DNA of 64,000 bases from Prostheceraeus crozeri. Taxonomy: Eukaryota; Platyhelminthes; Polycladida; Euryleptidae. This document shows positions 19,400 to 57,830 of the stretch, in pieces. The stretch is taken from NCBI GenBank assembly GCA_907163375.1, contig CAJQUW010001866.1, positions 62,001-126,000 on the forward strand. Reading direction: 5' to 3'. The notes below the pieces were generated by a model that worked only from the letters and a program-made list of their open reading frames with translations, made no database searches and was not told where the DNA came from. A program made the position numbers and the translations under genes. Position 1 is the first letter of the stretch; every line of letters begins with the position of its first letter.

Positions 19400-21777
19400 C
19401 TAACGCGATCGAGGAATCCTGACAGCCATATTCACCATCGACACATTTGTCTCCTTCCTCTCCTCTTCAAATACAGGAACTTCCAAAGAATCGTCTCTTC
19501 TATAAATACGCAATCCATCCTCAGAAGAAGTAAGGCTAGCATACGAAATTTCATCGAGAAGACAATTATCTCGACTCTCTGTTCGAAGAACGGATCCGCC
19601 TGAATCTCTAGTCTTCCCTAAGGCATTATTTTCACTGTCTGACGAAGGTCTGTTGGAAACATTATTTTTAATTATTTTTGATTTCGGAGAAGGTGCAACA
19701 GTGGCTGTAGGAAGACGGGAAATGGTGTGCGAAGGAAAAGCCTCATTACGAAGCGAGGATGATGCGATTTCAGAAGAGTTGACATCGAGTTCTACTTGAG
19801 GGTTATCGATGTTGGCAGTTCCTCCTATTGTCCTGTTAAGAGCATCGACCGGTGTAGCTGGTTGGAGATTGATATCGGGAATACCAGCCGCTTTCTTCCC
19901 TTCCATAATTTGTGTCATACGCATACTTGGTGTGTCGGTTGAGTTCTTGACTGTTTCATTAGGGGCATCATGTCTAGAACGTCTACTCCATTGTCCATTA
20001 GTGGATGTTCCCACCGCAACTGGTACTTCACTAACTTCTTCCATAGCTTCATTTCCTGTCTTGTTCGTCTCGATGAACGCTGAAGAGAGAACTAGCGAGC
20101 TTTCGGGATCATCAAACCCACATTTCTCTTTGTTATACTTCTTATCAGAGTCAGACACATTTTCTCGGCTTTGTTGTACCTGCTTCACGCTTTCGGCAAT
20201 TAGAAGTTCCTCTTGATTTTGACTTTCTTCCATCATGTTTCCTACGTCTTCTCCACTTATTTGAATGGGCTTTCCTGTGTTTTCCTTCGCTTTCACATTA
20301 AGAGAAGCCTCTAGCAGAGGCAGAGTAATTTTGCCTGAGGTTGCACTTTCCTGAGCAGCCTTTCCGGAGCTAGGAATAACTTTTACAGCACTTGGACCAT
20401 CTAGATCAGCTTTTCTAGCGGTTAGAATAACCTTTCCAGAATTTGGACTGTTCTGGTCAGCTTTCCTTGCAGTAAGAATGACCTTTCCCGAATTTGGACC
20501 GTCTTTATCGCCTTTTCTAGCAGTTAGAACGACTTTATCTGCAGATGCACTATCTTGAGCCGATTTCTCTGTTGCTGGAATGTTTGTCCGACTGAATTTT
20601 GTATCCCCTAATGCTTCCGGAAATTCACTTGCTTGTCCAGCTCCCAAGAGAGGAATTCCCTGCTCTGTGAAAGAGGGTTCAAGCAAAGATGTCTTTGGGG
20701 AAGATACTGTTTCTCCAACTGGGCTCTTACTTCTTCTTGGTGATTTACCAAATGATCTTCTTGAATTTCTCTTAGGATCTGCGGTGGGTTTACTAATATG
20801 CGGCACAATTTCACTATTAGCATCTTCATCACCAATAGTCAAATTTATCGTTGTCTTCTCCTTCACTTTCGGCTCATTTCCTGATGTCGTAAGCTCCACC
20901 TTTGTTGTCACTCGTGACTCCTTCACTTCTGGCACTGACACTTCTATGCCTGAAACTACTCGTGGCTCCTGGAGTGCACTGATTTTCTTACTTCGTTCCT
21001 GAGAAACTTCAATTACACCAACTGTGTGCGTCAACAACTCCTTGCTGCTTTTTACTGTGAATTCTCTCCTGGTCGGAGTACTTGCTCCGATACTTATGTC
21101 TGGGGGAGTGTCGGGAGTAGCAGGTATTACGGCTAAAGATTTAGGCCGCACGATCTGAACATCCGGCGTTTGTGAAGCAACAATATACGCCTCGGGCGCA
21201 CGAAAAGGCTCAATCCTTTCCCTCAGCATTGATTCGACACTTCTGGCGGGTCGAGGTGGGGAAAAGAGACTGAGATCAGGATGCAAAGAGGTCAAGGAGA
21301 CACTTTTCTCTTTCGTATCAGTAGCTAAGGACTTTGATACTGTCATGGCGGCCCTGTATCTAGCATGAGGTTCATCTTTGTCCGATGACACAGTAATTGA
21401 CGAAGAAGAAAGAGGTCTGTCTGCATCGTTACCGGAAAATAATCGTCTCCGAAGCTTCACATCCTCCTTGTTTTCTTGTTCTTCAAAAGCTGTCTCAAGC
21501 AGTCGGAGATTATGGCGCAAACGAGAGACAGCTTCATCGTTTCCTGAGAGAGTTTTGGCTTGAGAAGGCGGAGTGCTGAACATTTCGTCGAATTCAGTGG
21601 AATAGAAATAAGTTTCTTCATCGTCCCCACCCTCAACGTCGATCTCTATAGATTTAGAAACGACAACGGCACCAGTGAGTGGATGGTTGGCATTTTCGGA
21701 AGATATTTTCAATTTCACTATGCGTCCATCATCCTCTTCGAACTGTTTCTGCACCACCTGCCCAGGTTGATGTGGAC
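19400..21777 (-). CDS. TIR-like gene, exon 7 (terminal): disordered tail with 17-residue repeats
   Basis: From the acceptor GGTTGCAG at 21779-21778 an open frame of 791 codons runs to TAG at 19400-19402. It is by far the longest open frame in the window. It is acidic near the start (VEGGDDEETYFYSTEFDEMF), then has a short helical stretch (RLRHNLRLLETAFEEQ), long Ser/Pro/Thr-rich parts, a basic Ser-Pro patch (RRSFGKSPRRSKSP) and, near 20565-20290, tandem 17-residue units of the form KVxLTARKxDxxxPNSG with a matching 51-bp DNA period. The frame is open upstream to 21856, but that extension is intron if the acceptor is right. The C-terminus ends MAVRIPRSR. The function is unknown. Confidence 0.82.
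20290..20565 (-). repeat. 51-bp coding tandem repeat (17 residues, about 5 units)
   Basis: KVVLTARK, KVILTARK, KVILTARK, KVIPSSGK and KITLPLLE follow one another at 17-residue spacing, each trailed by a D/G/P/N/S-rich half. The first three units are nearly identical and the outer ones have decayed, which points to expansion inside the gene. Confidence 0.8.
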
Positions 21778-22974
21778 CTGCAACCGCGAGTGAGTGAGTG
21801 AGACACGACACGCGTGAGCTGAAATTCAAAACATCACGCTTTTCCCACGAATACATGTAGGCCTACGTTGATGATAGATTATACTCACAGAATACATGCA
21901 AATGAAATGTCGAAAAAAGTAAGCTAGGATATTTTCCCATTAAAGTTCTGTAACATTTAGGCAACTAGAAATGTCTTGATGATATGATGCTAACTTTCCA
22001 GTATTTACAAGCACCTAATTTGATTGAGAATCCAGAAATTTGGTAATGAATGCAAAAAGCCATTCATCTCCCGAAATAGCATAATTTTAAGAAAAATATT
22101 TTAAACACATACAAATGGCCGCCTGATATCTCGGGTACAAACCTTTGCCAATAGTAGAATGCTTCATAGATGTTTAATAGCATTCCTTCATTGACAAGGG
22201 TCTGAACCCGAAACGTCCGTGTCATTTTTATGCGTAAATACATTTTGCTTTTGCTTGGCATTGCAATTTCAGGAGTTTGTTAGTTTCTTTTGTCTTTATT
22301 ACGAAATGATGGACCTCCCGCTCTCTGCCAAATCATGAATTTAAGCAAACATTTTCAGTCAACTTATTTTCGTTCCAATACCTGGTTTCGAGGTCTTATT
22401 ATTCTACCATTGATATCTTACACGTTCTAAGTGTACTACCTTGCTGTACTTGCAAATTCTGTTTATTGTATTCTTCATATCATATAAAATGATAGGTCAT
22501 CAACGAATTGCTCGACAAGTTTCTTTACTCGTCAGAGCAAGCTTAATTTCCTGCATTGACAACTCTGTTAAGATCCGAGCTTGAGATAAAATACTTTGGT
22601 GTCAAGGTTTGTGGCTTCTAAGAGATTTTACCAAGTTTGCACTTACTTACGACACTTTTTAGATTCAAAGTGAAAACTGAATCAGAATGCGTGATAAACA
22701 AGAGTGAAGCATGAATAAGTATTGTCCAGACTACATGACATCACCATCATTTAGTTGTTTCCGAAATATACAAGTCGTTGCTTTTCACATTTCAAAATTC
22801 GCCGTTTATTATACTCTATTTTGATACTCTTATCTGCGTCTTCCCTATGATTTTCTCTCACTCCATTCCGTTCTATTGTCGATCCTCTTTCTGTCTTCGC
22901 AGCGTTGATGACCGCAAATGAGAACTATAATTACTACCATCACGCGAAGAACAATTACCATCTTTTGTACATAC
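21778..22974 (-). other. intron 6 of the TIR-like gene
   Basis: About 1.2 kb between GTATGT and CGCGGTTGCAG. It contains a TAGGCCTA at 21858. No other feature recognised. Confidence 0.5.
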
Positions 22975-23034
22975 CTGCAATCTCAACGGCGGATCTTCCC
23001 AATGACACTGGAGATATCTGTGTCGCTCTCATGT
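22975..23034 (-). CDS. TIR-like gene, exon 6 (60 nt)
   Basis: TTTTCATTTCCAG|ACATG... to ATTGCAG|GTATGT gives 60 nt, phase 1 in and out. It reads NMRATQISPVSLGRSAVEIA and joins exon 7 as G-PHQPGQVVQKQF. Both splice sites are good. Confidence 0.65.
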
Positions 23035-26000
23035 CTGGAAATGAAAACAGGGAATCACGTTAATCTTTCATTGCTATAAATATTCATCAACTAAAGCAAT
23101 TATTTAATCTAATAACTATATTCAATAGATAAAAGCAACATAATTTCCCCTTAGATGCATATGGTGGCAATCCAAAAGTTGCGAGCCGTATCTAGATGCT
23201 GTTCTAGCAGGAAGGATAAATTAAACGTCAAGTATGGTGTCCTGATCTGAATGCATATAATGCCACATAATTCTTCAGACGGATTTTAACCTAACTATCA
23301 AACAGCTCTGCGGGAATAATCAAGCAATATTCTGTTTGAGAAAAGTAATTAATTCTTACACCTGATGATTGGCAAAGATGATACAAACGCTGAACATGTC
23401 CTTCATTTCTTCAATTGCATTTAAATTTCATTATTATACTGCTATAATTGATTACCAATCATTATTGTCACATAAGGGCGAATAAGGCATTCGCTTACCA
23501 TCCTTTTAATGGATGTGTGCAGCCAGACATGGGAATCCAGAATGCACGGTAAAATGCTATCTGTGTACAATGCCTTATTTTGTAGCCAACAACATTGCAG
23601 CAAGTACAGACGTTATATGTAATAAACCACATTATCTGTTTGAGGTTTGCTGCGTCAATATATTCGCATATTTAGATATTTTAAATTATTAGTAATGCTT
23701 TAAAATCATCACATCATTTCGATAACAAAAATATTTAACCTTTTATTGTAATCAGAGAGATTGTGTTGAGGTCGGTCATATTTCAGGTTTTCATCGCATA
23801 CAGAATACTTCAACTGTAAAATAGCAGTTATTTTTAAATCGACGTTCATAGGGCATTAATTGAAATTTCGGAAGCAAAGAGATATTACGAAAAAATAGTT
23901 ACATTTGATAGCCAATTGCACGTTTCTGTCCCTGAATCATTGAAGCTAAAAAAATTGAACGCAAATTGAACGTTCAAAGCATCGTGTGAGGCTGCTATTA
24001 TTATTTATAAAAAGCTTGTTTCTTTGCTTGAAATGAGGTTTTTGACAACGTCTGACAATAATTTTCTCAACGTTTCTCGAAAAAATATTTAAAAGAAATG
24101 TGTCAGCTATGATACGATCGGGACAAAATGGATCGATATAGAAAGGAATTTTCATAGAACCCGTCCAAGCAAAGTCAGTAAATGACAAAGGATATTGCAG
24201 TAACATACAATGCCACGATATGTATTATGCAATTGTTTGTTGAGAACTTATCGAGTCAACATTCCGCTGACTAGTTCAATGAACAATTGATTATGGGAAA
24301 ACTAGAAGTAAATCGACAAATAAATGGAATATCTCTTACACTGTTTATAGCTTATCAATTCCAGGTTATCGTGACTTAGTAGCTCAATCAGCCAGCCTAG
24401 GAGTCCGACTGAAATTTAGTTCATTTGGATCTACTGTTGGTAGCTTATATTCCCAGTAATGTGATTTCTTTACTTATCACATATTATAAATTCTGAAGCA
24501 TTTTTTCACATTGCGCATTAATTGTGCATTGTAATATTTTACTTTGCATACCAGTATAAGTATTAGCAGCACTGCGATTTACACATGAGTTGATGTACGG
24601 TATATTAGTGAATCACAGAAATTAGTCTTAATAGAGCGGCAGAGCTGACTCGGCAGACCTTCGGATATGCTATCATTGCGTCCTACTTGATATCATGGTA
24701 TGCTTGTATATTGGTACCTCGTTCGTTTGATCAAAATGCTCTGGGCTGCCGGTCTATAATATCTATTTGTCTGAGAAAGAAAGCCTTTCTGTTTATTTAA
24801 AAGACATTCAAAAATTATTAAGAAGACAAACTTCAGTTCAGCTTTCGTCAACACCGGTCTTGTCAAAGGTATGAGGTTTTTACACATGTAAACATATATT
24901 GCATCAAATTTACATGTAACATGCTAGCATGTACAATTGTACATTGTATGTAAAGCCTCTTACACTCTTGACAAGGCGGGTATTGACGAAAGTTCATGTT
25001 CACGAAAACACAAAACAACAGCAGTAAAGTTCATTTTATTACAAAATGATTAAGCAATCTGCTGAGATCCAACCAAAAGCAATTTTCAATTTGCCTAAAA
25101 TGATTGCAGCCAACAAATTTGAATAACGAGACAAACTAATCGTAATAAGGGCACTACACGCATCTTTCATTATATTGACATTCAACAACTTGAGAAGCGG
25201 AATTTATGCACAGCTGACAACAAAGGCCTCAAACTTATTCAAATTAAATGAATTATTCATTTCTTCTTTCTGTTATCATGCGGTTTCCCCATAACGTGTT
25301 GTCGCAACTTGTAACTACACTAATGGAACAATACATCACTTGTTGCTCAGGTAAACATGAGATTAAAACGATTTCCAGCTAGAGATGGCATTCATATAAC
25401 TACTAAATCGATTGACAGTGACCGGATTACTTCAACGGACGTCTGGTTAATCTTTGCATAGACGACATTAAAGCAAACTTAGCAGACTCCTTCAGGAAGT
25501 GGCACACATGTTTACTAGCTTCATTTCGTAAATTAATAAATGAATAAGAGCATATGGCTTAATTTCAATTTCTTCAGATGAAGTGTACGAAAATACATGC
25601 CTACTATTTTTCGGACACACGATTGCAACACCGATACAGCACGAAACCTAACATACATTGAAGAAATTCATGTAATTCAAAATTTCGTGGGAGGAACATC
25701 AATCGCACCGAATAAGTGTCTTGAAAGTGTGACGTGGAGCTGACTAGAAAACTTCTCCTGGTATTGCAAAGACTACGCAGTTTGAAATAGGGAAATTAGG
25801 AGACGATAATGACGAGCTAAATCAATGGAAGGAATCTTGAGACTCAGTGACGAGGGATATGTCGAGAATATTCTTCTATTCTGTCACACAGTAGCAATGA
25901 AAGTCACCTACCAAATAGAATGACCTATGCTTTGTACATATAGACCTGTAATTTCTCTAAATATCAAACTAATTATTATCTTTGGTTCGCAATTGTGTAA

Positions 26001-28754
26001 TTGTGAATCATGAGCATTATAACCGCAAAGTATGAAATAATCAATGATTGAAATAAGAACTTTGTTTAAGTGACATATGGTCGAAGACTTCTAGGACACT
26101 AAACAGATGAAAATGTGCACAATGGGCAGCCAAAGAAGGTGTAGAATGAGGCAATCAAAGAAATGACAAAAAGTCACAAGAGATGATTCGATAAGAACTG
26201 CGCTTTTAAAAATCTATCTTCGCTGTGACGTCTGTAAGTATAAGAAGTTTATTTTGAAACTTGATACTCCAACATTTCAAAATTCTACATATTACATTTC
26301 TAAAGAAATGTATTACAACGTATTCACAATACAGCACATACCGCCGACATAACGAATATTCACTTTGACATTTGATTATGGCATATATAGCAAAGGCTAC
26401 GAAACTGACTCGACGTAAGACGCTTCTCGTGGACAAAAACGTGATCCTTAGCGAATTCGCGAATAAGTAAATCATGAAGATTCAGCAATTACAATCAATT
26501 GCATAATACACAACAAACAGCATTATTCTTCTATTACTTAATATGTTGTGAACATAATCGTACGACTCCAAATGTACGCCAACCCTTTCAGTCAACAGTT
26601 AAATGCCAACAGATGGAACGCAACCCACCAAAACGTTCCAAAGTTACTGTATGTATACGACAGTAAGAAGGAAAGACGAAGTCTACTAAAGCTTGAAAAT
26701 TTCATGGCTAATTCTATTCGTGAACATATTGATAGCATAAAGATCTCCTAAAAACAGACGATTAGAATATAGTGAAAATCGTAGGTATAGGCTAATAACG
26801 CACAGAAGTCATTGAATGATGGCGGATGTGAGACAGTACAAGTAGAACAAAATTCAAAAATATGAACGTATGTATTTCGGTATGAGTCTGAAACCCACCA
26901 CATATAAATTAGGTTTTTGGTATGAATGTCTACCATAGTGTCTACCATTTAACTTGCAAGGTGTGTGAGTCCATAAAAATCAATATTTAGGTGCTGTGTA
27001 TTTCCATTATAACTATGCATATCACTTTCAAATATGGTAGACATTCAATAATATAATCTATTTCATTTGTCACAACCTATCAACCCTGATGATGGGATGT
27101 ACGTGTAGACTCATGACGAGAGCTGGTTTGTATTTTTGAATTTTATTCTACTTGACTTTTCGGAAATCCTCAAATATAAAATGTCTAGCTAAGGTATTAT
27201 TGCAAGACAAAAAGTCATTTCTTAAATTGCAAACTTGTCCCAAATGTTCATTCTCTTGCGATAGACTGAAAATTGAAAAGGTTCATACTTGAAAAATATA
27301 ATGCATGAAAGTTTTTTTTCTTCTTTTGTTACGAAAAGTGTTATAAGAAGTGTCATTATCGTTATTTTGAGCATTTATGTGTAACGGAATAGCAAACTAA
27401 AAGCATCAGTGAGTTTGTTAGTTTATAAAGTATTGAAGACTTTTACATGAGACTTTCATAATTACTTTCAAAATCAGAGAACACTTAATGATGTCTTGCG
27501 GAGCGAAATCTACTGCATCGTTAAGTGCGTATTAGGTCAACTCTCAACCCTTGTAAAAATGTCAGCGATATGTCAGCTACATAGTACAGGATAAACATCA
27601 CATCTGCTTCCCGCTAACTTGCTGAAATATGGTTAGTTAAAAGATCGACTTTTCGATGAAAGAGGTGAATGTACTTTTAAAGATTACAGTCGCCTTTAAC
27701 AAGTTAAGGACACAAACTTATCAAGCCTCATAACTTTGGAAATAGATGTCAATTTGATTTGGAAAGGCAAAACTGATAATTTTGCTGACAAAGAGACGAA
27801 TAACAGCAAAAGTGTTGCTGGCAAACATTTGTGTACTTCAAAAATAAAATTAAAAAATGCATCAAGTAGAAGTTGATGAGCAAAAACTGAAAGTTCGATG
27901 TCTCCCCTTCTTTCATTGATCAGATTGTTTCACATGTTATTACGGTTAAACATCTAGCTGCATCAATAACCGAGCGCAACTATGAAAGTTGGTAGTTTTC
28001 ACTGAAACATACTTCTAAAAGATTGCCGATAACAAATACAGGGCTAGTCGACATTGCATGTGGATTGATTATTTAGAGAAAGTGTACCACGGATGTGCTG
28101 AGTTAATTGGACTTCAAAAGTTTAAATCGAAAATTAAACTTGATAATTACTGAAAATCGCATCTGCTCAAACATGACCAATTGCACATTGAATCTCTTCT
28201 CTCCACAACAAATTTCACATTTAGGCTAAGACCTAACAATTTCTGAAATAGTCTACTATTCATTTACATTATTATGTCAAGGTCACCATTCTGCAAAAAG
28301 CATCAGTGGACTTGCACTTGTTTAGTCTGAGATCTATTAAGACGGAGACAAAGTTAGTAAACTATTGTTATTTCCGAAATTGATCCTGCAATTAGGCGTG
28401 ACAATACTGCAAACGTACACAAAATCATTTCAAGAGCAAAATATTTCAAGTTCAGGAAAATCTAGAACGTAGACGTCATGTCGCGCATGAAAATTAGTTC
28501 ACCTATGGAAATTAACGAAATTTGCAAGAATTGTTCTGTGCATTGATACTAGTAAGCGAGATAGCTTTATAAATTTTATATTGATCGAACACGCGAATAC
28601 CTCGTACTTCAAATTATCCAGATATTGTGAAGTGCATGCATGTTTATAAATAAGGACGATTGTCAGTCCTCATTAGCTATTCATCAACTATGTCATGAGT
28701 GCGACAGAGTAAAAGTGTGTAAGTTGTAGCAGGCTAAATTCGCAGCTTTTTTTT

Positions 28755-28805
28755 TTTTTACGGATTTTACGTCACTTTTTACCCCTACTGGGGCCTTGGA
28801 CTTTA
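28755..28805 (-). repeat. SINE tail fragment
   Basis: GTCCAAGGCCCCAGTAGGGG on the minus strand matches the tail of the SINE at 30470-30650 (GTCCAAGACCCCAGTAAGGGG) in the same orientation. A poly-T/A run lies just beyond it at 28747-28759. No tRNA-like head is preserved. Confidence 0.5.
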
Positions 28806-34601: not shown

Positions 34602-34665
34602 AAATATTTAGAATGATACCACTTTTATCGAGGTGCTCCAACGCTTGCGTCTCAATAAAATGAAT
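34602..34665 (-). repeat. 64-bp inverted copy of Penelope RT sequence
   Basis: It is the reverse complement of 34854-34917 with two mismatches, in the 189-bp-spaced inverted position expected of a Penelope 5' inversion. Confidence 0.92.
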
Positions 34666-34667
34666 GT

Positions 34668-35843
34668 GTGATCAACTTTGTCGAAAACAATTGGAATAAA
34701 ATTGAAAACTTTGGTCTCACCTTAGATCAATTAAAAAATTGCCTTACTTTTATAGCTTTTAACTATGAAATAAGTTTCAAAAATGAGACCTACCTCCAAA
34801 TACACGGCTGTCCGATGGGCTCCCACTTCGCTCCTCCATTTGCGATCATCGCAATTCATTTTATTGAGACGCAAGCGTTGGAGCACCTCGATAAAAGTGG
34901 TATCTTTCTGAATATTTTTTTACGGTATGTCGACGACATAATTATGGGTCCGTTTTCCCGTAACATAGAAACTTTTGAAAAAATACTAGAAGTATTCAAT
35001 TCCATTAATAAAAGTATACAGTTTACTATCGAAGTTCCAGATCTGAATACCGCCCTAAATTTCCTCGATATATCTATTAGAATAAAAAATAATGATATTA
35101 GCTATCAGTGGTACTCGAAACCTACCCACTCCGACATCACTCTGAAAAAAGATAGTTGGGTGCCTCGTCACATTAAGGATAATTTCGTGAAGAGTACTGA
35201 ACAGCGGGTTGCATCCAGATGTTCGAATCCGGCCTTGAAAGACGAGTCTTTAAAAAAGGCACAAAACCGACTTCGTAAGAATGGGTTTAGCAACCGAGAT
35301 TTCAATAAAAACAAGAGTAAGAAAGAGAAAACAAATAATAATAACGTAAAATTTACTGTAGACTATGTGAGCGATAGCTGTAATAGAAAACTTAAATCAC
35401 TCGTGAAAAAATACAACTTACCCATCACCCTAGTTAACAAACCGAATAAAACTTTAAAACACTGCTTAAATAATAAGAAAAATAGTCGTAAACATGAAAA
35501 TTGCGAAATATATACTGGTTTGAACGGTAGCTATGCGTGCGATGATCGATACGTGGTATATCAATTTACATGTAGTCTTTGTAACCAATCGTACATTGGG
35601 CAAACTAGCCGTCCTTTTGTCACTCGCCTTAAGGAGCACGCCAGTAGTTTAAGGAGTCTTAATAATACCAGCGCTCTTACTGAGCATGCCAAGACCGTCC
35701 ACAATCGTAACATGTCCATTAACGATTTCAGGTATTGTATTTTAGACAAACTAAGTTCACCTATTGAAAGCCGTATTGCTGAAGCGAGGCACATCAACAA
35801 TAAGTCACCGGGTCTGAATAGGAAGCACGAGCTGGTTGGCTGA
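34668..35843 (+). pseudogene. Penelope-like RT C-terminal part plus GIY-YIG endonuclease, 5'-truncated
   Basis: An open frame of 391 codons. The RT part starts inside the domain and shows HGCPMGSHFAPPFA and the catalytic RYVDDII motif (about residues 85-91). A Lys/Asn-rich linker follows (about 190-260). The C-terminal GIY-YIG nuclease is recognised by YVVYQFTCSLCNQSYIGQTSRP (about 296-318), then the Arg and His (TRLKEHASSL) and a Glu (IESRIAEARHI) near 375. It makes DNA nicks used to prime reverse transcription. There are no internal stops, but the N-terminal third of the RT is missing, so the copy cannot be autonomous. It is inserted in intron 4 of the TIR-like gene, in antisense orientation to it. 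Confidence 0.9.
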
Positions 35844-40464: not shown

Positions 40465-41862
40465 TACTCAGTGACAAAAAGAATGAAACAAGTCCTGATA
40501 TGAATACTTATGACTTAAACTTGGTTGTACTGTACGTTTGTTTGTTGTTTGTAAAAGGAGAACTCGAATGCTTTACTCAAAAACATTTCATTTGATACTC
40601 ATGAATTTAAAAACTTAAGTTAGAAACGGGTGTGACCACCGCGAGCATCCAAACAGGCATCGATGCGTGAGGGCATGGATGAGCACAGTCGCTGGATGAA
40701 TGCCAGGTCTAAGAGGTTCCACTGCTCGATCAGTCTGTCGGCCAACATCTTCAAAGACACTGGTGGGTGGTTGTACCTCTCCCTTACTCTGCGACCAAGT
40801 TCATCCCAGCAGTGCTCGATGTGGGAGAGGTCTGGAGAACGTGAGGGCCATTCCAAGGTTGGGATTCCACTGCTTGCTATCCTGTTAGAGACCACTGAAG
40901 CGCGATGGGGCCTTGCGTTGTCATCCTGAAAAATCAATTGATTCGATGTCACTGCTGAAACCACGACAGGTGTCACGATCTCGTCGGCATATCGCTGTCC
41001 TGTCAATGTTCCTTTCACTACGATTGCTGGTGTTTTTCCATCGTGCCAGATACCGGCCCAAACCATGACAACCGCCGCCGTACCGATCGTGTTCTTTGAT
41101 GCAACATGGAGCAAATCGTTCACTTGGCAAGCGATGAACACGGATCCGACCATCGTTGAAATCGAGAGTAAACCTCGATTCATCAGTCCAGAGCACACGT
41201 TCCCATTGACTGTCACTCCATGACTGATGACCTTGACACCACGTCACTCGTCTCCTTCGATGTTCCAGGCTCAGCGGAATTCTCACAGAGGGTCGTCGAG
41301 ACTGTATACCAGCTTCTCGCAATGTTCGATATGCAGTTCGAATGCTACAGGCAACGTTCCCAGCAACCTTCCAGTACACAATTAGCTTCGGGACGGACAC
41401 AAATCTGTTTCTTTTAGCAGCTAAAACTAAGCGTGCATCTGTCCGCTTGGATGATACCCTTGGTCTTCCTGATCCGTTCTTCTTTTCCACATTTCCTTCT
41501 GCTTTCCAACGACACCACCACCTCCATATAACGACCCTTGAAATGTTCAATTTTTTCGCAACAGTTGTAGAACTTTGCCCACAACGCATCATCCCAATTG
41601 CCATTCCTCTGGTAAAGTTATCGTGCGCCATTTCATAAGTCAAATCTGGTCAGCAGTAGGTGGTGATTCTGTTCAACTTCTATCTGTTACTGTGATCAAT
41701 ATCAAATTTTGAAATTTGATGGTCCTATATCATTTCCCTTATCATATGGAGTTCAATGGTGATACATAGAAAGCGAGATATCATCTCAAACCATAGAAAA
41801 GAATGAAACAAACTTCCATTCAAGTCAATGATAGTTGGTTTCATTATTTATGTCAGTGATTA
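40465..41862 (-). mobile_element. Tc1-family transposon, about 1.4 kb
   Basis: The ends read TACTCAGTGACAAAAAGAATG on the left and the inverse TAATCACTGACATAAATAATG on the right, next to TA dinucleotides (40463-40464 and 41863-41864). It encloses a nearly intact Tc1 transposase on the minus strand. It sits inside the MITE. Confidence 0.85.
40620..41643 (-). pseudogene. Tc1 transposase (DD34E), one frameshift
   Basis: A TA-targeting cut-and-paste transposase. The N-terminal half (41643-about 41075) has the paired helix-turn-helix (QSSTTVAKKLNISRVVIWRW) and a second DNA-binding part ending in KNGSGRPRVSS. The first catalytic Asp is in WTDESRFTL. After a frameshift near 41070, at the conserved GGG-MVW region, the rest reads in another frame with the second Asp in FQDDNARPHRA and the Glu in SPDLSHIEHCWDELGRR, 34 residues apart. 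It ends DARGGHTRF at 40620. Only the one lesion was seen. Confidence 0.9.
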
Positions 41863-42142
41863 TATGCAGCCCATATAGTCTACGTGTATATTTAGTGTAT
41901 AGGCCTATTAATCTGTCCTGTACCAAAAATGACCGAAATCAACCAAAAAAAATCAGGATTTCCTGATAAATCAGGAAAAATCACATCCCTAATTTGTATT
42001 TGCAGTCTTTTTATCGTGTAAACAAACTTCTTTCATTCAAACAGGAAAATCAAGAAAGTTAATTCCTTTTGTTCACTTCAAAGGACATGCCGCATGTTAT
42101 AGGTGTGTAGATCTGAAGATTGATATCAACAAAAATATTAAC

Positions 42143-42318
42143 GATAAAGAAAAATTAACGTAGTCTCAAAATGCATCAGTTTATTGACAAATTTTCGTCA
42201 CAGACTTCATCAGGTGCACGATGCAAATGAACATTTGCATCGCGCACCTGATGAAGTCTGTGACAAAAATTTGTCAATAAACTGATGCATTTTGAGACTA
42301 CGTTAATTTTTCTTTATC
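42143..42318. repeat. 176-bp near-perfect palindrome
   Basis: Arms 42143-42229 and 42232-42318 (87 bases each) are inverted copies with two mismatches and only a 2-base spacer (ATGCAAATG-AA-CATTTGCAT at the centre). Each arm carries a CTGATGAAGTCTGTGAC motif. It would form a long hairpin in RNA or cruciform in DNA. Confidence 0.95.
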
Positions 42319-42833
42319 ATTTCCTAAGTCTCACGGCGATTACTTTTGAATAATAATAACATGTATAAATGGACAGTGACAGTGAAATACAGGATTTGAT
42401 ATGTAGCTACGTATCTGTAAAATTACTGATTGCGTTTTACCTGGAGATTTTATTAGCTTAATTTGTATTCGCAATATTCACGTGTCATTTGTTTGGCGTG
42501 TTCTGTTCATTCTTATGGAAAGGAAATTTTTCAGGAAAATAGAAACACCCAACCTTTCTTGATAAAATAAAATAGCATACAAAACCATATAATAAGAACA
42601 TATAAGATATTGTAGAATATAGAACATGTGTTTCCCACCATACTTGATTGTGATCATGGATCTTCCATAATTAGTATTTTATTGTTTACATGCACGATCT
42701 AGGTAAGAAAACTTGCGACTTCAACTTATGCGCCATCTACTTTATAACTTTATACAAATAGTAACACACACAAAAGTTTGCTTTATACGCCTATGCAACT
42801 AATAATGGCAAGCAATCCATTGAATTACACAGA

Positions 42834-43890
42834 TTAGTCTTTTTTGTCGAAGCGCGAATATTTGTTACTCGGCATAGAAGAATCTGAGAATTGGTGTACA
42901 TGTCTTTTTAGAATCACATCGAGTGCTCTACTGCGCGCGGCTTCTGTTTTCATTTCTAATGCATTCTTTTCTTGTCGAAGATCCATCAGGTCTTTCTCGG
43001 CTTTTCTGGCCTGCTGCAATGCATTCTCTGCAAGAGATGTTAGTCGCCGTTGCTCATCTTCCTTTTTCTTAAGAGGAGTTGCGATGTCTTCCATCTCAGT
43101 CGCGTGCTTTCGAATACTTTCGTTTCTGTTCATTTCCTCGTTCAATTCTTTTCGTAGACGCTCTTCTAATTTCTGTTTTTTTTCTTCCCGTTCTTTTCGT
43201 TGCTCCTGCTTCCATGCTTCATATTTCGAATGCGATGCCGTGTATGAATCTCTGAGTTGACGATCTATTTTCAATGTAGAGCTGTCCAATTTTTTGCTGT
43301 TGAGAACAGACTTACTGACGGACAACGCCTTTATGGTTTCAGAACCCAGCGATCGACGTTTCTTAGTTATTACATCGGATAGACCCGAAAAAATACGTTC
43401 GACCTCCGCGTTTCCATGTGGTAAAATAAAAATCGCTTTGGCGACTTTTACGAGGGTTGGTGTCTTTCCCACCTTGTCGACTTTCGACCAAAATTCTCCT
43501 ACATCGTTTTCATAGGCGTTTTTACCAGACTCTGATGAAGCCTAATCTCGACTTGCAATGTCGATTGGTCGATATCTCCTAAAATGTTAGGGATGGCTTT
43601 GACGAATTTAAAAACCCATTTCTCATAATGGTCACTCTGTTGGTACAGAGGACTTAAAAATCGTGAAGCCCTCAGTAGCTCGTTCCCGAAAGGCAAATAG
43701 TCGCTCAATCTTTTTGTAATTTCCATGAAAAAGGCTTTCATGATCTTGAAGGCGATTGCCTGGTTGGGCCTGATAAATCTGAGAAGATTTTTCGAGCTTT
43801 TTCACCAATGATGATGTTGTAGGCGTTGTGTATATGATCAAAGTTGGATACATCAATTTTCCAGCATCGGGAAGGGATCTGATCAATTGA
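42834..43890 (-). pseudogene. hAT transposase C-terminal part with long coiled-coil tail, broken
   Basis: Reading right to left, a helical region (NYKKIERLFAFRE, then FGNELLRASRFLSPLYQQS) leads into the hAT dimerisation domain: GEFWSKVDK, TLVKVAKAIFILPHGNAEVE, RIFSGLSDVITKKRRSL. Frameshifts near 43700 and 43490 separate the pieces. Beyond the dimerisation domain the frame continues for about 150 residues of charged heptad-like sequence (EQRKEREEKKQKLEERL and so on) and ends NKYSRFDKKD. The N-terminal zinc finger and most of the catalytic core are missing or beyond recognition. The tail is longer than in textbook hAT proteins. Confidence 0.75.
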
Positions 43891-44337
43891 TATATTTCTG
43901 AAAATCATATTCTCAGAATGAAGTACTAACATAATTCTTATGTTAACCTCAGCATATTCACAAGCAACATACATTCGTGTGTAAAATGGATCTGGAAAAG
44001 GTAAAAATATTAATAAATCCATCGCATATCATATGGAACATCGCAGTTCAAACTTAATTCAGATAGAGTTACAAACTTAATGATAAGATGTTAAATAATG
44101 CCTAGTTAGTCACAAGTATAAAACACATAAAGCAGTTCATAAACTCTATCGAAGATTGATATTATGAATGAGAATTAGAATATCAATATCAAGTTATCTA
44201 GTGACAAGAGCATTAGCTCGCGGTATATATTATAATATATCTAAGTGCATAATTTCGTTCGCGTATGAATCCTCAATTTCGCGTATTCGCGTATTTCCAG
44301 TCAAATTCGCGAAATTCGCGTCAGAATCCGACCACTG

Positions 44338-45520: not shown

Positions 45521-45896
45521 TGTAAGATATAACTAAATAATAACCAATCACACTTTTCAGATCGGAAACTATTACAATATTATTTTTTCTGATATGCATA
45601 TTCTTCTCTTAAATACGTAGTCGATCTCGCAATGTGATGAGTATGTCTCTTATTCAATATGTTACTTTAGCGACATGACGTCAGTATAGCTGATGCATAA
45701 AATGAACGAAAATTCAACATCACTATCAATGCATCGAACACTGCGCAATAAACATAAACAGCTGTGATCGATTAGCTAGAACAATTCATATACCAGACTT
45801 CTCATCGTAAAATCAATTATTCGAAAATTGCAATGTGTAGCGAGAATTAAACCTAGTAGTTTTGAGATTAAAACATACTTGGTCTATGCATGGTGG

Positions 45897-47676: not shown

Positions 47677-49780
47677 CATGGTGGAGTAGAAATCTAATAC
47701 AGCTTCACTTATAGATAAGAAAATTTCTCACTCGTTTTGTGAAATTTTAAATTTAATTGGAAGGAGAAGCAGTTGTAAACAACTTCTAAACAAATAGGGC
47801 GCAACCAGGTGCATTGAGTGAGGCTAAGACAAATCGTGTAAGTAAGGTAGATAAACACCAACTACAAACTTAATTAAACTTATTGTGTTAGCACAATGAG
47901 CTGAATAAAAAAATGTTTTCATCATCTCATCAATGATTCCACTTGCACATCTAAGAGCTCAGCATTCATACTAAAACTGATCAGTGAACAGGACGGCTAC
48001 ATCTCTGAAGAAAATATTAAAATTAAGGTAAATCTTTGAGAAATATTGAACATCATTTCTTCGCTGACTTTGAAGCTCTGACGAATTGATCATCCAACTC
48101 CTTATAATCTTGCTAAAAGGTTTCAAATTTCATGAGTCTCAGTATCATTCGCAGCGTCTCATCTGAAGACAAAATCTCTATATTAGCTCCCTGTGTTTAT
48201 TACTTGCCATCTTATATAATGATATCATTAAACTTCACGTATCTATCGCAGCTCTAATTTCGTCACTTACATACAACAATCCGAATTTCTCTTTTCATCG
48301 CACACATTCACAAAGAGTAGCTGAAGATCATGCATGTCCCAGTGAAAACAAAATAAAAAGAGGGTGCATTCAAAGCCGTCTTAGCTCCATAGATAGATAA
48401 TGAAAATGCCATCACCATTACTATATTTTTATGGAGTAGAGATGTTAAAACTTGATATTCACTTCCATTTTATTTAGAAGAAATGCGATTTGCAAGGAAG
48501 ATAAAGTGTAATGTAGATAACCAGTGACTTGCTATCGAGATTCAAACAATTAAGGTGATGCATGTGACCATCGAGAAGTCAAATTTCCATTAACAGGACG
48601 ATTAATTGATTAATTAACGATTAAGTAATTCCAATTCCAGGACGAAATCTGGAAAAAACATGCAAAATACAATGTGAAGTCATGGATAAAAGGTGATTGA
48701 TATGCAGCTGGTAATATTCGATTGACCACAAATACTCAACGATCGCATTTAGATTGAGAGAACAAGAAGCGATGAATCAATGAGAAAGTTGTTGCCACTT
48801 CTTAGCAAGATGAATAAAAAAATGAAATCCACATCTAGATTGATCACGACTTGACGAATTAATGATAAATCAAATTTCAAATTATCAATATCACATAATC
48901 ACGGCGATCCAAGATAATCATTTTCGCAGCAAATGTATCTGTTGTGGTGGATGCAGATGACAGAAATACACACCTTTATTGACAAAATGTACTGCTTTCG
49001 GCGGCAAGGCTGGAGCATAAATGTAACTTGATTCAGTGAATGATTTTTCAGTAGCAAACATAGATTTAGTTGATCATTTCTAGGTAAGATTGACACTGCA
49101 TTTTATAGTCCGGCAGCCAGAATGAAACAAGGAAACAAGGTCGAAAATTAAACTTTCGCAGAATGATGTACATCCCATTCCTACTGCGAATCTGCGCATC
49201 TGCCGAGCTCTATTTAATTCCTCTTCTTGTCAGACACGAATAAAGAAAAACAGATATCAATCCAATGGGACGCAGATAGCAGATTTTGGTTAAAATGAAA
49301 TTTTCCATGTTTTCTCTGATTAAGCGAAAAGTACATGTACTAGGCCCAGAGTCATAATTTTTGACATGGAGTGTCTTCAGGACATTTCCTATCATGTTTA
49401 TGTACCCCTGTGTATGACGATAAACACATTCAAATTTGGCAAGCCTCCTAATGTTGGCAAATGCAATCATTTCGAGCAATTAAATCCACATTTAACCACA
49501 TTCTCGCATACCTTACCCATCAGAAGCATGATAATAACACATACACATTGTAGGAAATGACCTGTAGACTTTGGGCTTAGCACTTTTCGCTTAATAAAAG
49601 AAAACATAGAAAATTTCATTTTAGCCAAAAACCACAATAGCGTCCCAGTGGATTAACGTGTGCTTTCTTTTATCATGTGTGATAAGAAGAGGAAACAGCC
49701 ATGACTCAGCAGACGCACAGATTCGTGGTAGGCAGAAGGTGTACATCTTTCTGTGAAAGTTTCATTTTCGGCCTCGTTAC
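46829..49780 (-). other. intron 3 of the TIR-like gene
   Basis: It contains the left-over 3' half of the hAT element 45897-47676 (positions 46829-47676). Nothing else recognised between 47685 and 49780. Confidence 0.45.
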
Positions 49781-49874
49781 CTGCAGAAACTAGTCCTCCC
49801 TGCCGGATTATTTCAGGCAATTCTACGTTCGTATCTTTCGAATATTCGTGTATGTCGGTGCTTTCAGTCTGATC
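49781..49874 (-). CDS. TIR-like gene, exon 3 (94 nt)
   Basis: Acceptor GGTATTTCCCAG and donor CTGCAG|GTAACG bound 31 codons plus one base. The peptide is acidic and polar (DQTESTDIHEYSKDTNVELP, then EIIRQGGLVSA) and fits the disordered linker of the protein. It enters in phase 0 and leaves phase 1, matching both neighbours. Confidence 0.65.
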
Positions 49875-51320
49875 CTGGGAAATACCAATGCAAGCGAAAA
49901 GTTAGGAATTTACTTAACGAAATTTACGTAGGTTATGAATGAGATATTTTAAGGAATATCCTCATGTCTATACATCTTTACTCCACTTGATTGAAAACAA
50001 CACGCAACTAATGACAATGAGACTTCAGACAATACAGAGACTTACAAGTAGTGTGTTGGCCTGGAGACTCACCCACGCCCCAAATGGAGGTATAGCGACA
50101 GATGCCTGATTCCTCGTACTCCGATACTGTTCAGCAGATAGAAAACAATATTCATTTCTTACATATCCAATGAAATTAAACTCCTGGCTATTAAAAGACC
50201 CTGTATAGGCGAAATTGACGTGGTTCATTGCTACGGTATTGGTTAACATCAAAACGATTCCTAACTGACATTTTTGGATATTAATACCTCGTAGCACTCA
50301 CACTGACAAGTGAATTGACACCTGAAAATAGACTAAAAAATTGACAGCAAGTTGAACGACTGGAGAAAATGATTACGAACTTCAAGCCCTTGAAATCAAT
50401 CAAGTCAAAGCTCATCGCCCAAGATCTGTTTAGAAAAAATTATGTCTAGCGAAAGGAGTAATTGGCTATCTTTCACACAAATATGGCTATGGGGTAGAGC
50501 AATGTAATTTCCAAGGGGGAGGGGTCTCATTAAACGATAGCGAGACCAATTACGGGGAAGAAAGGGGTAAACGAAAACGATAAAGCAATCGCCGAAAATT
50601 TACCGGAAAATCAAGTCTTATAAGTGCTACAGAACATCAACGAATATTAATTGTGATACATGTACAAATTGCTGAATTTATTAACTGGAGTAATTTTGAG
50701 GCATTTTAAGTGAACAGTTGCAAAGAGGAGGAAACTCAAATCTCCCCGTCCCCAGATTTGAAAGTAGTTTTGACCTCTTTTAAAAGCGCAGCTGATTTTT
50801 TACAAGCTTGACTGAGTCAGATTTTTCATATTTATATCATTATCATTTGTTTTTTTACTATCTATGCACTTGTTTTGTTAGCAATGGTTCTACATATGAT
50901 ACTTCGCTAGGTTCCTTGCAGCCTTCAGATTTTGGCGATTTGTTGTATACTGACTGTATACTGCATAAAGCAGTAAATGATTTCATGTTTTGGTACTTCT
51001 ATTCTTCCCGCCACATTTTTCAAGTTTTCCACATTCATCAAATTTCGACAAAGTTCGTCACTTTGGATTTAGAATAGACTTGATTTGTCACTGAGTGACA
51101 CTGCAACACGACTGAGAAGTCTTACTTGAACCCTGGGATAAAGGACTGGTACCTTGGATACTCAGTTAGAATACAAGGTACAGCTGTGATCATGAACTTC
51201 GTGTGATTGTTGTCTACAGACAAATGACGAGCAGTTGTCTAATTCTGAGGCTACAAATGTTCTGCAAGCCAGATAAGAGAAATTTTACATAAGTAATGGC
51301 AGTGGGCGGGAGGACCATAT

Positions 51321-51546
51321 CCAAGAAATTTTCAGAACTAAAGTATTCTCTCCCGAAGTATTTATGCCACAATAAAAGAAAGATTAAGTATAGATACAGG
51401 AGTTGCCAACGTTTCGGGTCCTGACCCTTTCTCAATGCAGTTAACTATATAGTAATAGTACAGTTAACTGTATCTATACTTTACCTTTCTATTATTGTGG
51501 CTTAAATACTTCGGGAGAGAATACTTTAGTTATGAAAATATCTTGG
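51321..51546. repeat. fold-back repeat, 79-bp arms
   Basis: 51321-51399 and 51468-51546 are inverted copies with scattered mismatches, both containing AGTATTCTCTCCCGAAGTAT and GCCACAATAA. The spacer carries, on the minus strand, TTGAGAAA-GGGTC-AG-GACCC-GAAAC (51435-51411), similar in layout to the Penelope tail motif. Confidence 0.85.
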
Positions 51547-52084
51547 AATTTTACACACTCAACGCTTTTGCGATGGTACTGAGACTGCACTAAGGAGCAA
51601 GAGAAGATCACTGAAGATGCAACACTCCCGGGTTACAACAGAATGTTGACGATGCAGCAACAGAAATGTGGGAGGAGGGAAAGAATAAAAGTATCCATGT
51701 TTTTTAAATTTAACATTCCTTGTGCTAGACAAACCTCATTAGTTTGGAAGAATCTTTGTCTAACCACCAAGAATTTGGTAGATACTCCAAGGCCGTGATA
51801 GAAGTCAATGTAATCGACGCTATCAAATGCATGAAAATGAAGATTGCTGGAAATTATACAACGTGTACCGTATAATGTTGGTTGACATGCATTGATTACA
51901 AAACCAACTTGTGAGAGGAAACGAGGGCGATTGCTTTATCGGTAGGAGTCTGAGGCGATTACGGACTTATGTGGGGAGGAAGGGGACCAAAAGTAAAATG
52001 AACGATTTTGATAAATTTTTGATAGGAAGTGCGACAAACCGACAATAAAATGCCTTCACATGCATTTTTCGGCCACTGTCGTAG

Positions 52085-52150
52085 TGTCAGCGTGCCTAGC
52101 GTAGTAAACACAAGCTAGTCTCCACCGCGGATTTCGGTTCGATTCTTAAA
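52085..52150 (+). repeat. tRNA-like sequence, possible SINE head
   Basis: TAGCGTAGTAAA at 52097 fits box A, and GGTTCGATTC at 52136-52145 is a perfect box B, about 39 bases apart. That is slightly short for a tRNA, and no clean cloverleaf is evident. It is more likely a SINE head or pseudo-tRNA than a tRNA gene. Confidence 0.35.
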
Positions 52151-55100
52151 TCAGTCAAGTGAAGAAGTAGTCTGAGTTGTTTTCTTTTAAAAACTTAAGA
52201 TAAACAGTAATAATCAGATATCAAAATAGACTGAACGTGAAATACATTGAGCAACAAAAATAAGTTTATTGTAATTACAAAAGTTGTACAATAACTTTAA
52301 ATTTCTTAAGTGAATTCCGATATTCTAGTGTACAGGCAATCATGAAGATGAACAATATCAAGTATGCTATCAGTTCATGACGTCAATCGATTTAAGGAAA
52401 TTCATCACGCTTACCCTTGAAATCAATCACTATTTGAAAGCTGCTTCCTTATACTCGAACGCAGCAAGTCTTGAAATCAGATCTCAATTTACAAGCGCAT
52501 ACTGGATTCAGAATAACTTCGCAAATGTCTGTCACCATCTAAGAATTTATCCCATGGGTCTCAAATCAACTGCGTACCACTGTCTTTCCCTACCCGAATC
52601 AATCGCTCACCTGCACAAGTTTCAGTGAAGACTTATTATGAACAGAACTTCGATGACATTTCTCGCATTAGCATACATTGGCAAACAAATCAACATAAAC
52701 ACAGTCATTGTGTTGTCTATTATGAACCAATACCATTTGGAGATCAGTTGTGAGCAAGTGTATATACGTATTATGAGCTGAATATGACATTTTCATGATT
52801 AGGCGAATGATTTTTGAAGCCAAAAAATAATTGATGATAATGAAAAGGTTAAATTCTCGGATGTAAAATTGTTGAAAAAAGTATCTAAACAAGCACAGTC
52901 AAATGAAATTTGTCTGAAAATAGGGAATGCAATCAAACTTCATAGCGCATTAATTCAGGCAAGTATGAATGTCATCACGAAATTTACGGCCAAGCTATTC
53001 AACGTTGGTTCTTTTTCATTCTTGCAAATCTCACGACTTGTAAGAGTTTACACCATGCATTACAGCTTGAGGACATAAAAAGGGAACCATTTGTAGACAA
53101 TAAGACAATTTTATCGATGCTTAGTTTGATTTACAGGGGTTGATTTCCAAACTCCAGGAAGCTGTATTAACCAAAATCTTCAAAAGTGGTGTTAAAATCG
53201 GTGCCAGCAACTTTGATATAATTTGAAATACTCCTTAAGATCCAAGTACGGTAATCCGTCTTGGCGAGAACTATTTGCAAAAAATTTCTCAACTTACTTA
53301 TCATACTTTCCGTGAGTTAGTCGGAAAATGAAAATCTCAATTTTATTGACAAGTGGAAAATCGCGCAACAAATTTATTTGACCTGAATTTCGACAATAAT
53401 TGTTCATCAGACACAATGCGGTTCTTTGAATCCATGTATGCATGGGAAAACAGCATTCCATACTAAAATCACAATTCTACAAGTTATAGGATATGCACGA
53501 ACAAATGCGCATGCATATTATACGCTGTCGAATAGATAAGCAAGATCTTTCGATCTTTTGGCTTTTAATTTGTAGTTTTTGTAAATGTATATGCACTAAC
53601 AATTTATAGTCTTGGAGCTTAAAGACAATCATTTATTTATTATTTTTCCTAACAATGCGACTCAGTCATTTCAAATATGCGTTTCGAAGAAGTCGAAAAT
53701 CTTCGATTGACCACCTGTAAAGCTATAACGACCTCCAAATAAAGATATTCTCCTTATTTTGATGGCTTAACTCTGGCAAGGGTGTCTCATTTAACTCTCA
53801 CTTTAAGAACAAAATGGTTACAACTTAAAGGTCACCAAATCTTATTCATATATCATGAAAATTTAGTGATGAGCAAACGAGACTATCCAGTATGTTGACT
53901 TCCGAAATGCGTTAAAGTGAGCATAGCATCAGATTACACGGACAACATAGTGAGGATTAAGATCCGGGTTCGTTGGGTGTCCTTAATATTAAGCCGAAAT
54001 ATATTTGATGAAATATACTATTCTAGTTCTGCATGATGTCTTTAACTAAGCTGTGCTTTAAGAATTCTTCATAGCAAAACTTTGTACTTTTTAAGTTATA
54101 TAGACAAGCTTTTAAGTTTAACCTTTTAGTATTTTCTGTTGCGTTGTACACGGTATTTCATTATATGACATTCACCTACATCATCCTTCCCTGTTCAAAG
54201 GCAACTGAGCAACTGACAGATGTGCGTAATCAATCAAAAGTTTCCGGTGCCCTGATTAATCCTATTTCGAAATTTTTCAAATTATGCAATACTTTTCTTA
54301 CAAGTGGCAATTGCCATTTTTGATTCTTGAAATGAGTCATGAACGCCACCGCTTCCTCACCCGTAATTAGATTGCTATCGATATGGTCAAACTTTGCTGG
54401 AGCGCTGTAATACGTTTACTCCGAATGCTCTTCATGGAGATTTCGAATAACTTTCAGGCGACTCGATCACAGGACTAAAAGTCATGAGGCCAAGCTCCAA
54501 GTCATTGCACCGCAACATGGGTCAGCTACCTTAAAACGAGAGTTAACTGAGAGCGCCTGTGAAAGGCGCATAACAGCTCATACGCTGAAAATTTGCGATT
54601 TTTATTGCATGTTCGACATGTAGAACCATTCTTAAACAGGAAACGGCATACACACACTGTGCAGTTACGCAGGCGAAAGTAAAGCATGAAATAGAATTAT
54701 CTCAAAAGATACTCATTCTTGTAGTCATCGAATCATCAGTAAAAACAGACTCGGCTGAACGTTTTTCCACATGAGGATATTGAACAGCCTCGTTTAAATA
54801 GATCAAACAAATTTATAGCATTGGCTAAACGATTTTACCGATTAAACTCATTTTCCTAATCGGAAAATATCAAATTTCAAATTTACTTATGATTCTCATA
54901 ACTCATGGTCATATGTCAATCACTACCGCATGAAGCAACTCTATGGATTTACGATTTAACACGCTAAGATCCGCATGAACCTCCGTAACGACAGAACCAA
55001 ACCCACTCGTGACAAATTCGTGACTTCCTGCCGGGGAAATTTCATAGCCTGCATAAATGACAGTTCAATTATTCTGCTGTCATGAGAGGAGTGCTACATT

Positions 55101-56605
55101 CAGAACCATAGAGAGAAATAGAACACACATAAAATGTGTGTATATCTTTAGATCCTTGGGTATGCGAGGATATTCTCCATCAAAAAAGAATGCGTATGTA
55201 TGGACTAAGTACAGACAACGTGCATGGTACATTAAGAATTCAGCATTTCATGAGACAATTGAATAAAACTAATGGAATTCAAATGCTTCCGTGGTCTTCG
55301 TGAAAGCAAGAATAATTAATTATCCCTTCTCACAACCCACACTGTGTGACGTGTGACAGTTCATGAAAATTGCGTAATACTCAGCAATTTGATGTTGATT
55401 GAGAACTTTAAAATCGATTTTTATCATATTTCGGGTTCAGCTAACTACACAATTTAGTGAACTTAATCTCTCTGATAGTTGTTAATAATAGATCCAATCT
55501 CAGATATAATACACATTTAAGTCAAATTAAATTTATTTTCTTTGCTTTCAAACTTCTCAATTTTTTGCCAATTAGTAATGACTACGGATGACTTGGATCA
55601 TGTCAATTACCTAAAAGGAAACTGTGAATAATTCAAAAATAGTTTTAAGCCTTAATTAAGATAGGTTTGTACTTTTTATGGAACCCGAAACAAAAAATGT
55701 TCCTACTGATGAGGGTTTAGAAATTCGATCGATCTGTCAATCAGATGTGTTGATTGGTCATTGGTCACAGAGTAGGCTTCATCACAGGTCGGATCGTCCC
55801 AAATCTGCTAAGACCGCCTCAAAAGTAGTCATCTCAGGGTGAGGATGCTAATTGTGTACATCATCATCTGATTACAATATCTCCTTATAGCTGCTTTTAG
55901 CTTCTTTCATCCTGATCCCACTCCTATTCTACGTGACTTCAGGACCCTTCATAGTGTGGGAAACGCTAACTTCTCTTTTCTTCTCCAAACCATTTCCTTC
56001 TCAGTGGTCAATGCCAGTGGCGGCCCATGACTCGAGGCTTAGGTGGGTCACGAAAAGGTCTATTCCTTTTCTTGCAACACAACACATACTTTGATAAAAC
56101 AAAACCATCAAAGAGGATGTGTACCTAATTTTAATTCGCTTGTAACTTCTTGAATTCGACTGACTTAAACCTATACCATATCATTGCATTTAGATTTAAT
56201 TTATTTTTGATCAACATGTTAATTAACATTACATGTCTAGTTCCACGTGGCTCTAGTTGAAGGGATTAGTAATTCCATGCATTTTTATCCGTTAATTTTA
56301 GATTTACATGAATGACAAGGCTACTTGAGACGCAAGAGGTAGCTTTCTCAATGGAATTCATTACACAATAGCAGCAGATCAAAGTAATGTCTGCTCTAAG
56401 AAATTTGATTCATTGTAGTAAGAAACTGAACAGCGAAAGTCTGTCATCACAAAATGTCATCTGCACAGCATCCTCACATACCGCAATACACTTAAGGCTT
56501 TGCATGGAATTGGAAAGAGTCTATATTGAAATCTTTTTCGCTATTTGTAACAATTAATTTCAGTTAACATCCGTTAACTATCTTCAGGTAGAAAGGTGAG
56601 TTTAC

Positions 56606-56655
56606 CTTTCCTTTTTCGGTTTGACAAGCGGGAAATTTTAGAACTTCTACAAATT
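56606..56655 (-). CDS. TIR-like gene, exon 2 (50 nt)
   Basis: A 50-nt exon between TTCCTATTTGAAG and the donor AAAG|GTAAAC. The single base left by exon 1 plus AA gives Glu, and the helix of exon 1 then continues smoothly (RLLK-EFVEVLKFPACQTEKGK). It leaves phase 0, which is exactly what exon 3 needs. The phase fit and the natural continuation are the evidence; the acceptor is only moderate. Confidence 0.55.
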
Positions 56656-57310
56656 CTTCAAATAGGAAACTGACGAATCAACGCTGTTTTAGGTGTACCA
56701 ACTTCCTGAAGTACAAAAACTTGAAGCCAATTTAGTCACAATCATTCTGCTCTCATGTATTTATTCCTCAGCGTTGGTCACATTGGATGACCAGGTTCGC
56801 TGCTTTGGAGTTCCGCTTCCATTTTGCACGGTCGATGGCCTGGTCCAAATGATGCATATTTATCACTACAAATCCATAAGTGAATAAAAACCACATTCGA
56901 ACTTCTTACAGGAAGCAAGAATACAAATGCATTGTAGAAAGCAAGATGTTAGCCTACATAGGAGTGGAATTACTACAAATAATGTAACTATGGCATAGAA
57001 ATTGATAAGATTCGCAACATGAGATAATGTAGACATAATTAATAACATTCATGATCAATAATCAATTGTCATAACAGCCTTGATAAAATCAGGCAATAAA
57101 TTGTGCGATATTGGAATTCATAATTTGTAATTATGCTTTCCATCATCGTGCTCAGCACTACATACAATATGTTTCAGATTCATCCACATCCAAAATGTCT
57201 GATGAAAATGGCACAAACTTTTCTTACCGGCTTATGCAAATATCTTTCTCACGTTCTCTGTGTGACTGAAAATTTTATTGAATACAAGTACCACATAAAA
57301 AAGGACTTAC
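56656..57310 (-). other. intron 1 of the TIR-like gene
   Basis: Bounded by GTAAGT after exon 1 and a CCTATTTGAAG acceptor before exon 2. Nothing else recognised inside. Confidence 0.5.
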
Positions 57311-57830
57311 CTTTCAAAAGCCTATGAAGAGCTTTCCATGTCTCAAGATCAGCTTCCCAATCGGATTCCTTGAAGGTAACCGGTTGATGAATGAGCACGC
57401 TGAAATCTATTGACGGATCCAAGGCCACATCTCCGACGAAAACCAGAATAAATCGATTCACCCATTCTGGACGAACAGTAACGAAGACTAGCAGACGTGG
57501 ATAAAACTTTTTGAGGGCGAGGACTGACTTTTCTGTCACTATAATAACTACGTATTCAGAATCTACGAGAAAACGACGCTCAAACTGGTCAAAGTCTCCA
57601 ATGAAAGCTGCTCCGGCTTCCATAGGCAATGAACATCTCATTCCAAAATGAGATTCAAATTTACTTTTAAGGAAGTTACAGAATCGGTAGGATTTATCAG
57701 TTGTTGGTGAATACTCGATGGTAACAGGCGCGTAGACATCGGGTGGCAAGATTGTAAATTTGTATCTGGGTGATCTGGGTGACGGAGATCTTCTCCCGAT
57801 TCTCGGCGACTTCGAAATTGGCGACGCCAT
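57311..57830 (-). CDS. TIR-like gene, exon 1: TIR/SEFIR-like domain
   Basis: This exon encodes 173 residues plus one base, ending CTTTTGAAAG|GTAAGT, a strong donor. It starts with a basic Ser-Pro-rich stretch (MASPISKSPRIGRRSPSP). The rest follows the order of a TIR or SEFIR fold: strand TIEYSP, an amphipathic helix FCNFLKSKFES, strand MRCSL, helix FDQFERRFL, the hydrophobic strand SEYVVIIVT with a helix after it, strands RLLVFVTV and FILVFVG, and a final helix WKALHRLL with a conserved-type Trp. This assignment rests on topology and short patterns, not on a database match. I cannot tell whether it is a scaffold TIR or an NAD-cleaving one. A strong Kozak context supports the chosen ATG. Confidence 0.75.

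Follow-up and report, generated by a model that had tools for sequence, protein, structure and literature searches.

A predicted gene of the flatworm Prostheceraeus crozieri joining a putative alpha/beta domain, possibly TIR-like, to a long low-hydrophobicity tail

A gene on the minus strand of a P. crozieri contig most likely encodes a lineage-restricted scaffold, in which an N-terminal alpha/beta docking domain would be followed by a long phosphorylatable tail. It was found in a stretch of 64,000 nucleotides (C1532:62001-126000), referred to here as the window. The more specific reading, in which a nuclear gene encodes a cytoplasmic scaffold of ~1,390 residues composed of a diverged TIR-type docking domain and a disordered tail, is put forward tentatively, as one that could well prove wrong.

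Exon structure and genomic surroundings

The preliminary description proposed seven minus-strand exons with GT-AG borders joined in perfect phase, and this chain was rebuilt exactly, amounting to 4,389 nt (1,462 codons and one stop). Its backbone comprises three long open frames on the minus strand: exon 1 (57830-57311; 520 nt, from the ATG to an AAAG/GTAAGT donor in phase 1), exon 5 (32577-31372; 1,206 nt, phase 1 to 1), which encodes a low-hydrophobicity tail, and exon 7 (21777-19400; 2,378 nt to the stop TAG), which encodes the remainder of this tail. Their inner borders are GT-AG, every join is in phase 1, and the three exons read through as 1,367 codons. An in-frame stop is located at 57845-57843, 12 nt 5′ of the ATG of exon 1, and an ATTAAA is found ~369 nt beyond the stop codon of exon 7.

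The coordinates of the small exons were absent from that description; the four considered here, also on the minus strand, are taken to be the same ones because their sum gives its total of 1,462 codons. They correspond to exon 2 (56655-56606; 50 nt), exon 3 (49874-49781; 94 nt, phase 0 to 1), exon 4 (46828-46748; 81 nt), and exon 6 (23034-22975; 60 nt, phase 1 to 1), the frame being maintained with or without the last of these. Candidate exons, defined as acceptor-donor pairs in the two gaps, were scored by splice consensus, with weights set by hand, and by agreement with the codon usage of exons 1, 5, and 7; as a control, each gap was dinucleotide-shuffled 100 times and scored in the same way. 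Exon 6 reached a score of 19.1, the highest among the 41 candidates of its gap, and none of the 100 shuffles matched it. Exon 3 (14.2) led 155 candidates and was matched by 6 of 100 shuffles; its inclusion would require a partner running from phase 1 to 0, such as exon 2. However, the score of exon 2 (7.1) was exceeded by the best candidate of any phase in 99 of 100 shuffles, and that of exon 4 in the phase previously assigned to it (3.6) was lower still. Exons 2 and 4 are therefore indistinguishable from chance and amount to guesses; exon 3 is a marginal case. Since exons 1, 5, and 7 are in phase even without the small exons, the perfect phase of the original chain gives no evidence for exons 2 to 4. 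The safe gene model consists of exons 1, 5, 6, and 7 and encodes 1,387 aa, the join between exons 1 and 5, which are 24.7 kb apart, being a prediction from the sequence.

The mean intron length of P. crozieri was given as 5,263 bp and the genomic GC content as 37.64% in its genome description (PMC9469890), so that long introns are usual in this species. The GC content of the window (34-44% per 2 kb) and its long introns fit this published genome.

Several sequences resembling mobile elements were observed in and near the window. The long intron harbors Tc1-like (PF13358, PF01498) and hAT (PF05699) transposase pieces at 40620-43904 on the minus strand. At 34659-35843 on the plus strand, a Penelope-like frame with an end resembling GIY-YIG was recognized by eye and had no Pfam match. 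Outside the gene, piggyBac-like transposase frames occupy 3361-5230 on the plus strand (PF13843, E 4.3e-59 on 3527-4882), and a 324-aa DDE transposase frame (PF13359, E 9.9e-37), of the Harbinger type by eye, occupies 62106-63080 on the same strand. Beyond the window, at ~150-165 kb of the same contig (loci L015-L016), a cluster of polymerase, integrase, ATPase, and capsid-like frames had, by eye, the appearance of a Polinton/Maverick. Elsewhere in the assembly, a 100-kb contig carrying COX1 contains repeated, degenerate COX3 copies (L008, G000:C6227:5651-12097), which could stem either from the assembly or from a mitochondrial repeat of large size. The mitochondrial COX1 reads with TGA as Trp and AGR as Ser, and AAA and ATA occur at positions that we take to be conserved Asn and Ile. 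A mitochondrial code with TGA as Trp, AGR as Ser, AAA as Asn, and ATA as Ile is common to flatworms and echinoderms.

The N-terminal domain and its possible kinship with TIR

The protein encoded by exon 1 starts with a basic, Ser/Pro-containing leader of ~25 residues, followed by a putative alpha/beta domain of ~149 residues. When the whole genome assembly was searched (2,048,925,868 bases in 14,165 contigs), this domain matched one other place, C13440:141080-141406 (locus L006; E 1.2e-6, 23% identity over residues 47-154), and the reverse search from L006 returned exon 1 (E 2.4e-6), with an identity of 23-24% across both directions. This distant paralogue is a frame of 204 codons, with 170 residues from its first Met. 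A tail comparable to that of the gene under study was sought downstream of it, and no plus-strand frame longer than 113 aa was found in the 13.8 kb that precede a V-ATPase A-like frame, named by eye. A phase-1 GTGAGT is located close to where the L006 domain ends; the conservation of this intron position between both genes is not claimed, since a better alignment of the last helix extends past the GTGAGT.

A fold of the TIR or SEFIR type had been proposed for exon 1 in the preliminary description. No Pfam cut-off was reached by exons 1, 5, and 7, by L006, or by the first 923 residues of the joined chain, and neither TIR family (PF01582, PF13676) returned a row up to E 10 for L006 or for exon 1, whole or trimmed, a negative limited by the HMMER filters, which remove most weak rows. 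Likewise, phmmer and profile searches yielded no sequence match in the PDB. A PF24798 row on exon 1 (E 0.24) was below the cut-off and was set aside as chance.

A hint of kinship came from profile comparison. Exon 1 and L006 were compared by hhalign with an alignment of five TIRs (two from this genome and three PDB fragments), resulting in a match over 53 columns with a score of 21.6, E 0.012, and a probability of 3.7%, whose register was taken to be that of betaC-alphaC-betaD, namely the right one for a TIR. None of 200 column shuffles reached this score (maximum of 19.0), and the reversed alignment gave 16.3. Of 76 other frames also scored, one (517) proved to be L006 under another locus name and was excluded; among the other 75, the highest score was 20.7. 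Moreover, the five-TIR alignment scored 20.5 with an unrelated frame, and exon 1 with L006 scored 10.2-15.0 against each TIR singly. The TIR profile match thus leads the other frames, yet is barely separated from them. The AF2 models of exon 1 and L006 had a mean pLDDT of 42.0 and 35.6, respectively, and are of insufficient quality to argue for or against a TIR. In the model of exon 1, neither the first nor the second strand expected for a TIR was present, and its Foldseek search returned 148 matches with the limit at E 10 and none at E 0.001, TIR being absent among the 50 matches listed.

Altogether, kinship of the exon 1 domain with TIR appears possible but falls somewhat short of probable, so that this part of the proposed fold persists as a hint. 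Kinship with SEFIR is rated much lower, and this alternative was abandoned, since the only PF08357 row in the genome (E 4.39) lay on another contig, with none up to E 10 on exon 1 or L006. An enzymatic reading was likewise considered improbable. The catalytic Glu of TIR NADases sits in a W-C-x-x-E stretch, and no such stretch was seen by eye in exon 1 or L006, in a register that is itself uncertain.

The PF01582 search of this genome returned at least three matches at E 0.001, of which one contained two stops and one was a MyD88-like frame combining Death and TIR domains. A 280-aa frame at L001:1435-2277 on the minus strand contains a TIR domain (PF13676, E 1.8e-11), nearest in the PDB to that of TLR2 (E 4.4e-10), and a receptor part was not seen in this frame.

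The tail, the proposed role, and alternative readings

The tail presents a composition distinct from that of the domain. In exons 1, 5, and 7, disorder-promoting residues (A, R, G, Q, S, P, E, K) account for 59% of the tail versus 40% of the domain, and the tail carries 28 Ser/Thr-Pro sites. Bulky hydrophobic residues make up 44-52% of the domain core, measured in its two blocks of 50 residues, in contrast to 16-28% of the 23 complete blocks starting at residue 201. However, 515 of 1,316 windows of 51 residues along the whole chain fell on the folded side of the charge-hydropathy boundary, so that parts of the tail may fold, and the disorder previously assigned to it holds as a statement on composition. 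Within exon 7, a 51-bp tandem repeat (20374-20529, minus strand) encodes 17 residues per unit, in frame, in 3.1 copies. The pairwise mismatches among its three copies numbered 10, 8, and 25 at codon positions 1, 2, and 3, respectively, and this third-position excess is that expected under selection on the protein, supporting the coding nature of the region. The composition, frames, and repeat support a coding gene, as had been proposed; its N-terminal domain is compact and hydrophobic, and its long, repeat-bearing tail is rich in Ser, Glu, Pro, and Lys. A genome search for paralogues of exon 7 at E 0.01 returned exon 7 alone (14 candidates scored). Rows for PF02843 on exon 5 (E 0.01, or 0.029 when the joined chain was scanned) and for the NCBIfam TraV on exon 7 (E 0.12) were below the cut-off and set aside as chance.

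A plausible role for this gene is that of a signalling scaffold. The N-terminal domain of ~150 residues would be a strongly diverged, probably non-catalytic TIR-type domain that docks to a partner, perhaps the MyD88-like protein of this genome or another TIR-like domain. The tail of ~1,200 residues, by composition largely disordered and with many Ser-Pro/Thr-Pro sites, would be phosphorylated and recruit further proteins. The Death and TIR frame found in the genome was counted in favor of this scaffold. A narrower version, rather improbable, would be a TIR-like scaffold specific to flatworms, with a sister gene consisting of the domain alone; this scaffold would either have taken over the docking role of the Dof/BCAP adaptors or serve the MyD88 pathway.

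The strongest competitor, a serious possibility although still under the mark of a probable one, retains the gene and its scaffold role and assigns to the N-terminal domain another alpha/beta fold unrelated to TIR/SEFIR, shared by a lineage-restricted family with two members in this genome. Such a fold would agree with the absence of TIR rows up to E 10, with best E values of 4.39 elsewhere for PF08357 and 0.58 for PF18567, and with the small lead of the hhalign score over other frames; nevertheless, it leaves aside that a match in the TIR register exceeded all 200 shuffles. The unity of the gene could also be questioned, as exon 1 may open one transcription unit and exons 5 to 7 may be part of a second one with unrecognized 5′ exons. 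The distance between exons 1 and 5 and the Tc1-like and hAT pieces (by Pfam) and Penelope-like frame (by eye) lying there would suit this division, phases would agree at two joins by chance in 1 of 9 cases, and the gap contains several unexplained frames of 90-168 aa on the minus strand. We consider it unlikely, given that a strong phase-1 donor ends exon 1 and a phase-1 acceptor opens exon 5, that, among the minus-strand gap frames of at least 90 aa, none of seven scanned for their lack of transposon appearance passed a Pfam cut-off, and that long introns are usual in this species judging from its published mean (PMC9469890).

It is very improbable that the gene is a highly diverged adaptor of the Dof/BCAP/BANK type that lost its DBB and ankyrin parts. 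An N-terminal TIR is present in most bilaterian proteins of this type (PMC7260276, PMC5241739), and, as they were reported as not found in the parasitic flatworms Clonorchis and Echinococcus (PMC7260276), a diverged member of the group might have escaped notice. However, TIR_3 (PF18567) gave four rows in the genome, none over the cut-off and none at this locus; neither DBB (PF14545) nor ankyrin repeats matched exons 1, 5, and 7 or the first 923 residues of the joined chain; and the YxxM motif is absent from exons 1, 5, and 7. Because neither DBB nor ankyrin parts were detected, the gene is not classed in this group.

Relation to known TIR and SEFIR proteins

Planarians are reported to lack Toll-like receptors and to have kept MyD88 and SARM, and Schmidtea has 20 TIR proteins, more than were found in this genome (PMC7958881), while a survey of TIR proteins gives the receptor type as absent from flatworms (PMC7075850). 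The N-terminal domain of BCAP was firmly established as a TIR through its structure (PMC5241739). A comparable polyclad protein was not found in the open-licence literature. If the exon 1 domain is TIR-like, the gene would be a candidate missing link in the wiring of such pathways in flatworms, for which Toll-like receptors and, in the two parasitic species above, Dof were reported absent, and of which planarians kept MyD88; if it is not, the gene would add to the lineage-restricted disordered proteins and be of modest interest.

The SEFIR proteins (Act1 and the IL-17 receptors; PF08357) have at most a general order of alpha/beta elements in common with exon 1, which had no match to them; the SEFIR of Act1 is placed toward the C terminus. 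The TIR adaptors MyD88, TIRAP, and SARM1 (PF01582, PF13676) resemble it in domain size and in the possible betaC-alphaC-betaD register, but exon 1 has no family match, and none of the three is known to carry a low-complexity tail of ~1,200 residues after the domain. Although TIR_3, DBB, and ankyrin matches and YxxM are missing from the frames scanned here, the closest architecture is that of Dof/BCAP/BANK, in which an N-terminal TIR-type domain precedes a long remainder and the protein plays a docking role.
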